From NCBI RefSeq assembly GCF_023806485.1, contig NZ_JAMSLR010000001.1:595836-659835 (forward strand): DNA of 64,000 bases. The letters run 5' to 3'. This DNA is from Thermalbibacter longus (GTDB lineage Bacteria > Chloroflexota > Chloroflexia > Thermomicrobiales > Thermomicrobiaceae). The translations under genes were made by a program, and so were the position numbers. Under the pieces are notes generated by a model that made no database searches, had not been told where the DNA came from, and saw only the letters and a list, made by a program, of their open reading frames with translations. Each line of letters opens with the position of its first letter. The stretch's first letter is position 1. This document shows positions 40,397-56,294 of the stretch, piece after piece.

Positions 40397-40426
40397 TTGA
40401 CACGAGGTCACACAGCATGCTAGTAT
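40397..40426 (+). promoter_or_regulatory. Strong promoter with no gene immediately downstream
   Basis: TTGACA (40397-40402), 18 bases, TAGTAT (40421-40426). The predicted start point is about 40433, at the head of a run of hairpins and roughly 450 bases upstream of the next credible start codon (40885). Confidence 0.75.
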
Positions 40427-40432
40427 GTACGT

Positions 40433-40553
40433 GCGGTCCCGATGAGATCGCTCTCGGGTCCGGCGCAACGGTCAGCCAACGCTGACCGGCCCTGGCCCAA
40501 CCGGGAAGCCGGGAGGGCCCACGCCAGAGGTCGCGGCGCCTGGCTTATGCCAG
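40433..40553 (+). ncRNA. Candidate structured RNA (leader or small RNA), unassigned
   Basis: Four consecutive hairpins begin right after the promoter. H1: CCCGA-T-GAG(ATCG)CTC-TCGGG at 40438-40458. H2: GGTCAGC(CAAC)GCTGACC at 40470-40487. H3: GGCCCT with an inner CCGG(GAAG)CCGG closing on AGGGCC at 40488-40519. H4: CTGGC(TTAT)GCCAG at 40540-40553. No open frame in this span has a start and ribosome binding site. I compared it from memory with cobalamin, SAM, TPP, GEMM, T-box, guanidine, ZTP, SRP and RNase P consensus elements and could not match it. It could be a long 5' leader of the MFS gene at 40885 or an independent RNA; a TTTTTT run at 40617-40622 might mark a 3' end but lacks a clear terminator stem. 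The span 40554-40884 holds nothing else I can identify. Confidence 0.5.
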
Positions 40554-40884
40554 CTCCGCGGGCCAATGGGACGCGACAGGGCGGCGCTGGGCACTGGGGT
40601 GGCTCGTCGGGATCGTCTTTTTTGGCGAGGCCGCTGGTGTTGGATTGCCCGGCCGCTCGGATGCTCGACGGGTCTTTGGGGGCTCCTCGCCAGTGGACCG
40701 ATTGGTCCGGACCATGCTCTCGCGACCCGCTCGTGAGGCGCCAGCATCGGCGAGGCGACTGCTCCTTCCTCGACGGCGGTGCGGTATTCCTCAGGGGCTT
40801 CTCGGTGCCCCGCGAGCAGTCAAGTGCCGGGTTCGGTGAAGGGTGTCGATATCGGGTCGCCCCGAAGGGTTATCAGGAGCACCT

Positions 40885-42186
40885 ATGCCGTCAGGTCACC
40901 CTTCGCCTTACCGCGCAGCCATCCGGTCCTACTACCTGCTTGCCGGCGGCGCCGCGTTTTGCTACGCCCTCGCCTTCACGGTCAGCAGCGTATACCGGAT
41001 CGAGTGGGCACGACTCGATCCGCTTCAGCTCGTGCTGGTCGGCACGGCGCTCGAACTCACGATCTTTCTCGCCGAGGTGCCCACGGGCGCTCTCGCCGAC
41101 CTGCGTGGCCGTCGGCTGTCGATCCTGGTCGGCCTCGTGTTCGTAGGCTTCGGCTTCCTGCTCGAAGGCGCAATGCCGGTCTTCGCGACCATCGTCCTGG
41201 CACAGGTGCTCTGGGGAATCGGCTACACCTTCACGAGTGGCGCTGACAGGGCCTGGATCGTGGATGAAGTGGGGGAGGATCTCGTTGCACCGGTCTTCTT
41301 GCGCGCAGCTCAAGCGGCCCAGGTCGGTGCCCTCACCGGGATCGTCCTCAGCGCGCTTCTCGCGAGTCTTCGCCTCAACCTGCCTATCCTGGCCTCCGGG
41401 GTGCTCTTCCTCGCGCTGGCCTCGGCGCTCCGGTGGCTGATGCCGGAGCGGCGGTTCCAGCCTGGCGCCCACGATGGAGGTGCCGCCTGGGCTGTGTTCC
41501 GAACCACGTTGACCAGGGGCTTGCAGGTGACGCGTCGTCATCCCGTCTTGCTCTTACTGCTCGGGGTTGGCGCTCTCTGGGGCCTGGCCAGCGAGGGGTT
41601 CGACCGGCTCTGGGCATTGCATCTCCTCCAGGAGGTTACCCTGCCCACCATCGGCCCGCTGGCTCCGGTCGCCTGGTTCGGCGTGATCCAGGCAGTGACG
41701 CTGGTGCTCAGCCTCGTGGTAACCGAGCTGACCCGGCGGCGGCTCGAAACCGGCTCCTACGCCGCGATCGCCCGGGCGCTCACGCTGCTAACGGGGCTGC
41801 AGTTCGTCGCCATGCTCACCTTTGCCGCCTCGGGCCAGCTCCCGCTGGCTCTCATGAGCTACTGGTCAGTCATGCTGCTTCGCCAGGTGACCGAGCCGCT
41901 GTACGCCGCCTTGATCAACCACGGCGTACCATCGACCGTCCGCGCGACGGTGCTCTCGATCAGTAGCCAGTCCGACGCGCTCGGCCAGATTGCTGGTGGG
42001 CCGCTGATCGGCCTCGTTGGACTGCACATCTCGGTTCGGGCAGCACTGGGCACCTCCGCTGCCGCGCTGGTTCCGGCTTTGGTCACGCTAGTGCTGGTCA
42101 CGCGACGACAGAGGGCATTGTTGCCCGGCTCGACCGTCGAGTGCGTCGCAGAGACGGCGCGGGCCGCGGAGGATGCGGCCAGCTAA
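40885..42186 (+). CDS. MFS transporter
   Basis: 433 residues with 12 predicted membrane segments; motif-A-like GALADLRGRRLSILVG lies after helix 2 (about residues 65-80) and the second half carries VTELTRRRLETGSY. It resembles drug/antibiotic efflux MFS proteins of the tetracycline-resistance-like type with a long amphipathic linker. ATG 40885 has AGGAG 6 bases upstream. It is preceded by the candidate structured RNA and followed by a palindrome and glnA. Substrate unknown. Confidence 0.85.
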   Translation: MPSGHPSPYRAAIRSYYLLAGGAAFCYALAFTVSSVYRIEWARLDPLQLVLVGTALELTIFLAEVPTGALADLRGRRLSILVGLVFVGFGFLLEGAMPVFATIVLAQVLWGIGYTFTSGADRAWIVDEVGEDLVAPVFLRAAQAAQVGALTGIVLSALLASLRLNLPILASGVLFLALASALRWLMPERRFQPGAHDGGAAWAVFRTTLTRGLQVTRRHPVLLLLLGVGALWGLASEGFDRLWALHLLQEVTLPTIGPLAPVAWFGVIQAVTLVLSLVVTELTRRRLETGSYAAIARALTLLTGLQFVAMLTFAASGQLPLALMSYWSVMLLRQVTEPLYAALINHGVPSTVRATVLSISSQSDALGQIAGGPLIGLVGLHISVRAALGTSAAALVPALVTLVLVTRRQRALLPGSTVECVAETARAAEDAAS

Positions 42187-42196
42187 GAAGGGCTCG

Positions 42197-42217
42197 ATTT
42201 GTGCACTGAGCACAAAT
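42197..42217. promoter_or_regulatory. Perfect 8+5+8 inverted repeat upstream of glnA
   Basis: ATTTGTGC-ACTGA-GCACAAAT, AT-rich in a GC-rich region, between the MFS stop and glnA. It could be an operator controlling glnA (about 120 bases upstream of its start) or a weak terminator of the MFS gene. The AT-rich symmetry favours a protein-binding site. I do not recognise it as a known GlnR/NtcA box. Confidence 0.45.
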
Positions 42218-42339: not shown

Positions 42340-43713
42340 TTGGTGGTCGACACGACGGTCATCGGCCGCCGGGCGCCCGCCCCATCGGCGGACGAGGTGC
42401 TGGCGCGAGCCGAAGAAGAGCGCGTCGAGTTCGTCAGCCTGCAATTTACGGACATCATGGGGATCGTCAAGAACGTGGTGATCCCCGTCGAAGTGTTCCC
42501 GCACGTCATCGAAGAGGGCCAGTGGTTCGACGGCTCGTCGATCGAAGGGTTCGCCCGCATCGCTGAGAGCGACATGTACTTGATGCCGGATCTGTCGACC
42601 TTTGCGGTCATCCCCTGGGAGCGTGGCACCGGCACGACAGCTCGGGTCATCTGCTGGGTCTACAATCCCAATGGTGATCTCTTCCCCGGTGATCCCCGCG
42701 TCGTTCTGCTGCGCCAGCTCGAGCGCGCCGCCAAGCTCGGCTTCGTCTACAACACGGGGCCCGAGCTGGAGTTCTTCCTCTTCCGTAGAGAGAATGGCCG
42801 CATTGCGCCCCTCCCGCACGACCAGGGGAGCTACTTCGATCTCACGACGGATCTCGCCGCATCCGTCCGCAAGGACATGATCAGGGCACTCGAGGCTTTC
42901 GGGATCAAGGTCGAGGCCGGTCACCACGAGGTCGCCGTCGGCCAACACGAGATCGACTTCGAATACGCTGACGCGCTCACGACCGCCGACAACGCGATTA
43001 CGTTCAAGTACACCCTGAAGGCAGTGGCGCAGCAGCACGACCTGCACGCCACCTTTATGCCGAAGCCGATTCAGGGCATCAACGGCTCCGGCATGCACAC
43101 GCACCAGAGCCTGGCCTGGCTCGAGAGCGGTGCCAATGCCTTCGTCGACACCAGCGACCCATACGGGCTCTCGGAGCTCGCCAAGCGGTTCATCGCTGGG
43201 CAGCTCTACCATGCGCGTGGTATGTGCGCGGTGCTGGCGCCGCTGGTGAACTCCTACAAGCGGCTGGTGCCAGGCTACGAGGCACCGGTCTACATTAGCT
43301 GGGCGCGGCAGAACCGGTCGGCGCTGATCCGGGTGCCGGCAGTGCGCGCCGGACGGCTTCAGGCAACCCGCATCGAGCTGCGCTGCCCCGATCCGTCGGC
43401 GAACCCGTATCTCGCCTATGCCGTCATGCTGGCTGCCGGGCTGGACGGCATCGAGCGCGAGCTGCCGCTGCCGGAGCCGATCGAGGAGAACGTCTACCAC
43501 TTCACCGAGGAGGATCTCCGGCGGCGCAACGTCGGCGTGCTGCCGTCGACGCTGGGTGAGGCCATCGCCGAACTCGAGCGCGACGAGGTCGTTCGGGAGG
43601 CGCTAGGCGAGCACGTCTTCGAGCGCCTGGTCGAGGCGCAGAAGCGTGACTGGGATGCTTTCCGGCAGTACGTGACACCCTGGGAGCTGGATCGCTATCT
43701 CGAGATCTACTAG
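42340..43713 (+). CDS. glnA: Glutamine synthetase, type I (alpha-like)
   Basis: 457 residues. ATP-dependent synthesis of glutamine from glutamate and ammonia. Key sites: WFDGSSIEGFARI, EFFLF (metal-binding Glu), KPIQGINGSGMHTHQSL (ATP-binding) and NPYLAYAVMLAAG. Near the C-terminus the type I-beta adenylylation Tyr motif is absent (VYHFTEEDLRRRNVGVLPSTLGEAI instead), which points to the feedback-regulated I-alpha class. TTG 42340 or GTG 42343 follows AAGGAGGT (42328-42335). An AT-rich palindrome lies upstream and a strong hairpin downstream. Confidence 0.96.
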   Translation: MVVDTTVIGRRAPAPSADEVLARAEEERVEFVSLQFTDIMGIVKNVVIPVEVFPHVIEEGQWFDGSSIEGFARIAESDMYLMPDLSTFAVIPWERGTGTTARVICWVYNPNGDLFPGDPRVVLLRQLERAAKLGFVYNTGPELEFFLFRRENGRIAPLPHDQGSYFDLTTDLAASVRKDMIRALEAFGIKVEAGHHEVAVGQHEIDFEYADALTTADNAITFKYTLKAVAQQHDLHATFMPKPIQGINGSGMHTHQSLAWLESGANAFVDTSDPYGLSELAKRFIAGQLYHARGMCAVLAPLVNSYKRLVPGYEAPVYISWARQNRSALIRVPAVRAGRLQATRIELRCPDPSANPYLAYAVMLAAGLDGIERELPLPEPIEENVYHFTEEDLRRRNVGVLPSTLGEAIAELERDEVVREALGEHVFERLVEAQKRDWDAFRQYVTPWELDRYLEIY

Positions 43714-56197: not shown

Positions 56198-56294
56198 GGC
56201 GAGGGCGCATGGGAGTCGAACCCACCGGCGAGGCTCGTCACCCCGCCCAACGGTTTTGAAGACCGCGCAGGCCACCGGGCCCGATCCGCCCTCA
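56198..56294 (-). tRNA. selC: Selenocysteine tRNA, anticodon TCA
   Basis: A 97-base tRNA including CCA: an extended acceptor stem starting GAGGGCG (7 perfect pairs with CGCCCTC; the eighth pair is G-G), a 6-bp D-stem CGGGCC(CGGT)GGCCTG, anticodon loop CTTCAAA, a long variable arm GGCGGGG(TGACGAG)CCTCGCC, T-arm GTGGG(TTCGACT)CCCAT and discriminator G with encoded CCA. Length, 6-bp D-stem, long variable arm and TCA anticodon are diagnostic of tRNA-Sec. No selA, selB, selD or obvious selenoprotein lies in the window. Confidence 0.95.

Follow-up and report, generated by a model that had tools for sequence, protein, structure and literature searches.

A putative autonomous RNA gene of about 190 nucleotides in Thermalbibacter longus and its predicted RNA family

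Introduction

What does a consensus promoter transcribe when it is followed by hairpins rather than by a gene? This question is raised by a locus in a 64,000-nucleotide stretch of the Thermalbibacter longus genome, the window analysed here. A sequence-only reading had proposed that an undescribed structured RNA starts there at about 40433, with four tandem stem-loops ending at 40553, and that it is either an independent RNA or the leader, roughly 450 bases long, of an efflux-type MFS transporter gene. Here we consider the extent and fold of this RNA, its conservation, its relatives within the order, the genes around it and the known RNAs that it resembles.

Promoter, terminator and predicted fold

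A promoter of the sigma70/sigmaA type lies on the plus strand where it had been proposed (40397–40426): a −35 TTGACA at 40397–40402, an 18-base spacer and a −10 TAGTAT at 40421–40426, with a TG before the latter (an extended −10). The pattern was found once, against 0.2 occurrences expected from shuffling. Folding of the sequence behind it moves the right-hand limit of the RNA well beyond 40553. The interval 40433–40560 folds at −74.1 kcal/mol (z = −3.9), and extending it to a T-run, TCTTTTTT, at 40616–40623 strengthens the signal; the full interval 40433–40623 folds at −124.4 kcal/mol (z = −6.8), and none of 300 shuffles is as low. We place the predicted RNA gene, which we call the A type, at 40433–40623 on the plus strand (about 190 nt), as homologues and covariation also indicate. 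Its ends are joined by a closing stem, P1, in which GCGGTCCCGATGAG at 40433–40446 pairs with CTCGTCGGGATCGT at 40603–40616; the pairing probability exceeds 0.999 in the full transcript. P1 and the T-run together form a putative intrinsic terminator, which a simple scan did not report because it permits short loops only.

The predicted fold inside P1 is multi-branched, and this changes the reading of the four hairpins. The first (40438–40458) dissolves in the full transcript, where its probability is about 1e-15 and its 5′ bases are engaged in P1; the others are arms of the larger fold. Helix P2 (40457–40466 with 40584–40593), in which 4 of 10 pairs are doubly changed among relatives, leads to a multi-branch junction. 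The second hairpin (40470–40487) is real and covarying: it corresponds to the 8-bp P3 (40469–40488), paired in 100% of alignment cells and with two doubly changed pairs. The third (40488–40519) survives only in part, as 40489–40493 pair instead with 40578–40582 to form helix P4 (96% of cells paired, no double change). What is left of it is arm P5 (40494–40497 with 40516–40519, one doubly changed pair), whose length differs among genera and whose inner hairpin occurs only in g1, the genus of the window. The fourth (40540–40553) stands as the tip of a longer arm, P6 (40524–40569), which is strongly conserved (GGTCGCGG ... CCGCGGGCC); 98.8% of its cells are paired, three of its pairs are doubly changed and the sequence is invariant in 12 of 17 pairs.

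Conservation in relatives

BLASTN against 60 related genomes found the element at 88–89% within the genus and at 68–78% in another two genera of its family. In the nearest relatives the alignment spans 40432–40625, and the sequence upstream has mostly diverged. A covariance model, R1, retrieved the A type from ten genomes, which belong to g1, g3 and g6 (E 1e-25 to 1e-34), and, elsewhere among 61 genomes of the order, nothing save one weak second hit in G014; E-values of this and the later model R3 are rough because their calibration was shortened. The A type is thus conserved in ten genomes and three genera while its flanks diverge. When the contigs of GTDB-220 were scanned with a sequence pattern, the A type turned up in Thermomicrobium, in Thermomicrobiaceae and in HRbin26/28 bins, with Thermomicrobium sp. 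CFH 73360 among the carriers, and otherwise in a single isolated Amycolatopsis match. No plasmid-borne copies were found.

Comparison of relatives for compensatory base changes had been suggested by the sequence-only reading, and such changes are present. Of the cells in the alignment of the ten sequences, 97.8% are paired, against 27–46% in slid controls; 15 pairs are doubly changed versus 9.0 in shuffles and 55 cells versus 18.9, with 0 of 500 shuffles reaching either value, in an alignment that was fitted to the model and somewhat favours the structure. RNAalifold on a MAFFT alignment returned identical helices and 14 doubly changed pairs. These results bear on another alternative, that the hairpins are chance inverted repeats of GC-rich DNA or that a coding region has been taken for RNA. 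The region is indeed GC-rich and a 234-codon open frame (40442–41146) crosses it; against this stand the folding z score, the compensatory changes, indels in relatives whose lengths are not multiples of three, and the conserved promoter and mostly U-rich ends described below. We give this alternative scarcely any credence, because covariation and the family evidence already refute it.

A wider RNA family

Weak R1 hits (the B type, E 4e-4 to 6e-3) pointed to further RNAs in g6 and in the Sphaerobacter-like genus g2, whose genome G004 we take to be that of Sphaerobacter thermophilus. These RNAs have a promoter, closing stem and U-run like those of the A type, and a different interior. Searching for the 3′ strand of P1 added members in g2, g4 and g6. 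A second model, R3, was built from these further RNAs, with no A-type sequences included. In g1, g2, g3, g4, g6 and a second family, f2, it found one to three members per genome, and in the other families of the order tested it found none. R3 also recovers the A type in five genomes (E 2.6e-7 to 4.7e-4), among them the window element, for which E is 2.6e-7 genome-wide and 4.6e-9 in the window (40432–40624). Run against 400 Chloroflexota genomes, R1 and R3 gave nothing significant outside family f1, under strict filters that weak relatives may escape; the f2 members came from the smaller search only, not from this one.

We compiled 39 members, 10 of the window type and 29 others. Every one of them has the promoter, with a score of 9–11 of 12 that about 1% of control windows match or exceed at its lower bound of 9, and 38 have TTGACA itself. 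The distance from the −35 to the stem anchor is nearly constant (38–41 bases) wherever the anchor was correctly located. The 14-bp P1 is likewise present in 39 of 39 and shows compensatory changes: several kinds of pair occur at positions 1, 4, 5, 6, 8 and 13, and position 11 is often mismatched. A U-rich 3′ end almost always follows P1; it is weak in a few members, such as that of G011 (GTGCGTCTTCG). Promoter, closing stem, P2 and junction are therefore the family-wide parts, and the arms vary by subfamily. By these comparisons the window RNA is one member of an uncatalogued RNA family with one to three copies per genome, known so far only from Thermomicrobium-like bacteria and near relatives.

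Several smaller features were observed along the way. The spacers of most members carry GGYCAC or GGGCAC about 4 bases after TTGACA, often with TGTGC before the −10; these may be an additional promoter element or operator half-sites. Some paralogues have a Shine-Dalgarno-like GGAGGUGA on the 3′ side (by eye), which is not universal. Three g6 loci (L141, L150 and L151) encode a predicted RNA, about 88 nt long, that has a stem like P1 (GGCCCCGACGAU/AUCGUCGGGGCC), a U-run and a weak R3 match and is possibly a miniature member.

Genes around the RNA

In agreement with the sequence-only reading, no credible gene lies in the interval of the hairpins; the MFS frame begins at a GTG (40843) or at the ATG that had been given as the next start (40885). 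The MFS transporter gene (PF07690) runs from either start to 42186 on the plus strand. It is intact between the RNA and glutamine synthetase only in the window's genome. At the same place the sister species G001–G003 have apparent remnants (judged by eye), and in other genera no MFS gene was seen between the RNA and glnA. Because the gene is interposed in one genome and seemingly left as remnants in its sisters, we conclude that the RNA is not an MFS leader and that the MFS gene is not functionally tied to it. The proposed leader of about 450 bases also conflicts with the putative terminator near 40623, with relatives in which the RNA persists and no MFS gene is intact, and with the paralogous RNAs, most of which have no co-directional gene downstream. 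The other reading offered at the outset, an independent RNA, gains from the same evidence: its own terminator, the relatives and the paralogues.

The next gene, a glutamine synthetase (42340–43713, plus strand; PF00120/PF03951), is the second of an ancestral tandem pair. One copy was found in the window's genome versus two in G002, G005, G008 and G011, which indicates that the first of the pair was lost in the former. Between the A type and glutamine synthetase in g3, g6 and the g1 sister species lies a palindrome, TTGTGC-N5/6-GCACAA; its operator-like counterpart in the window is TTGTGCACTGAGCACAA at 42199–42215. The g2 and g4 genomes, which have no A type, carry this palindrome ahead of glutamine synthetase too, so it belongs to the gene, and control of glnA is separate from the RNA. 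Found before glutamine synthetase genes across the family (window 42199–42215 and L005, L006, L055, L058 and L059), it is probably bound by a nitrogen regulator.

The A type in the relatives has a co-directional gene directly downstream; most other subfamilies do not. The downstream gene is convergent in g2 and g4, for the C type of g6, the second copy of g3 and one f2 member, and for the B type in G008, as judged from frames picked by a simple composition rule, under which individual gene calls may err. A co-directional nitrogen-assimilation gene follows the RNA in two subfamilies, the A type (glnA) and the second copy of g1 (gltB-like, by inspection). In the window's genome this second copy is at contig C1:456301–456497 (minus strand), and the gltB-like glutamate synthase gene follows some 0.8 kb downstream; one copy there and the other near glnA hint at a nitrogen link.

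Such surroundings could suggest a cis-acting attenuator or riboswitch in which P1 is a conditional terminator and a ligand (glutamine, for example) or a protein gates transcription of the nitrogen gene downstream, glnA in most relatives and gltB for the second copy of g1. It would account for the fact that the A type of g3, g6 and the g1 sister species invariably precedes glnA, for the gltB-like gene behind the second g1 copy and for a terminator built into the conserved fold. However, glnA is preceded by a separate operator palindrome, which lies downstream of the RNA and is found even where the A type is absent, and the window's genome keeps the RNA although an MFS gene is interposed and the first glnA is lost. 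No alternative antiterminator pairing was seen, in a search that was not systematic. Most other subfamilies face genes on the opposite strand, which makes a cis-leader role for the family unlikely, and we consider this cis-acting explanation improbable.

Comparison with known RNAs

The sequence-only reading had failed to match the RNA to any riboswitch or housekeeping RNA and had called for a covariance search against Rfam. That search agrees with it: the window RNA has no match at gathering score or at a relaxed E-value, and Rfam 15 gave no convincing match for any representative tested. (Elsewhere in the window, a selenocysteine tRNA, RF01852, is found at 56201–56293 on the minus strand with 75.3 bits.) Searches of the open-licence literature turned up no paper that describes these RNAs. 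Judged by Rfam 15 and that literature, the family is new; its general kind, an autonomous structured bacterial RNA gene, is known.

Individual candidates were rejected as follows. The glnA and Downstream-peptide motifs (RF01739 and RF01704), candidate glutamine riboswitches, occur near nitrogen-assimilation genes (PMC2864571), which the A type likewise adjoins. The window RNA differs from them in its length of about 190 nt, its own putative terminator and its paralogues mostly without a co-directional gene, and it does not match the Rfam model of a glnA-type glutamine riboswitch. A bacterial SRP RNA is discounted by the ordinary RF00169 found elsewhere in 11 of 11 genomes tested. Y RNAs have a conserved stem formed from both ends, a variable interior, several paralogues and a U-rich 3′ end. 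The present family shares all of these, a likeness drawn from general knowledge; it differs in that none of the f1 and f2 genomes searched has the TROVE domain of the Ro protein (PF05731), and in that the RNA has no Rfam match. The domain occurs in four f3/f4 genomes, where the RNA was not found.

With 6S RNA (RF00013) the window RNA has in common a length of about 190 nt, a strong promoter of its own, an end-to-end closing stem and a high degree of structure. Yet 6S RNA is a rod with a central bubble, whereas the window RNA is predicted to be multi-branched with three arms and sits in another genomic place; moreover, its relatives coexist with true 6S in sister genera. RF00013 has no match to the element in the window's genome or other A-type genomes, and a 6S model built for the order, R2, scores it at about 13 bits at most, which is noise level. 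We therefore reject a divergent 6S RNA.

A different possibility is that the A type is an RNA-polymerase-binding RNA that replaced 6S in the Thermomicrobium-like clade. Ms1 in actinobacteria, which is proposed to do the job of 6S RNA, provides a precedent (PMC9130861, PMC4191392). The order-tuned model finds 6S in 28 of 28 other genomes and in 0 of 13 genomes of g1, g3, g5 and g6, where RF00013 likewise finds none; the A type is present in 10 of these 13, and the remaining three are only 54–78% complete. 6S is missing from its usual place before holA: this site holds other sequence in g1 and g3, and no 6S was seen there in g6, where other frames were picked at some loci, for which the whole-genome search is the evidence. 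The strong housekeeping promoter would also fit such a role. Nevertheless, 6S loss and A-type gain on one branch amount to a single coincidence. The glutamine synthetase tree groups g1, g3 and g6 (support 99/99), so that loss and gain need one event each, and that they coincide is little proof. In g2, g4 and f2 other subfamilies occur alongside 6S, there is no 6S-like sequence match, and the predicted folds, a nearly continuous helix from P1 to P2 with three arms, show no large single-stranded central bubble. The window RNA resembles Ms1 in being a structured RNA of a lineage without detected 6S; the window family differs in having several paralogues, and its binding of RNA polymerase is hypothetical. 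Replacement of 6S by the A type is thus a minority reading, and one we think quite unlikely.

Discussion

The undescribed structured RNA proposed to start at about 40433 is borne out by conservation in relatives and covariation, by the conserved promoter and by a 3′ end that is U-rich in most members; it matches no Rfam family. At the level of sequence the locus has the marks of an autonomous small-RNA gene: its own promoter, a terminator-like end, a conserved fold, membership in a family and independence from the gene downstream. The A type persists in the window's genome despite loss of the adjacent glutamine synthetase gene and the interposed MFS gene. Our preferred reading, to which we assign a probability of about 0.72, is that 40433–40623 is an autonomous gene for a multi-branched RNA of about 190 nt that acts in trans.

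Under this autonomous-gene reading, transcription would start from a strong, housekeeping-type promoter at the first base of P1 or within one or two bases of it. P1 would form once its 3′ strand emerges, P1 and the U-run would end transcription, and termination would free a compact, multi-branched RNA. We infer that this RNA is transcribed, stable, abundant and protein-bound, and that its folded form works in trans. By conjecture, the stem and junction that all members share would serve as the platform on which one partner, most probably a protein, sits, and the arms would supply paralogue-specific roles. In a bolder form, which we regard as a long shot, the family would be a new class of multicopy RNA-protein machine peculiar to the Thermomicrobium/Sphaerobacter lineage and built on one platform of closing stem and junction with swappable arms; its A type would have replaced 6S as a global transcription regulator in the clade that lost 6S.

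It is uncommon for a multicopy family of structured RNAs to combine conserved ends with variable arms. Because the RNA is well bounded by promoter, stem and U-run, its expression, its partner and the effect of a knock-out lend themselves to direct tests, for which cultivable relatives could in principle be used. The coincidence with 6S loss, in turn, yields a concrete hypothesis on how this lineage may cope without the 6S regulator.
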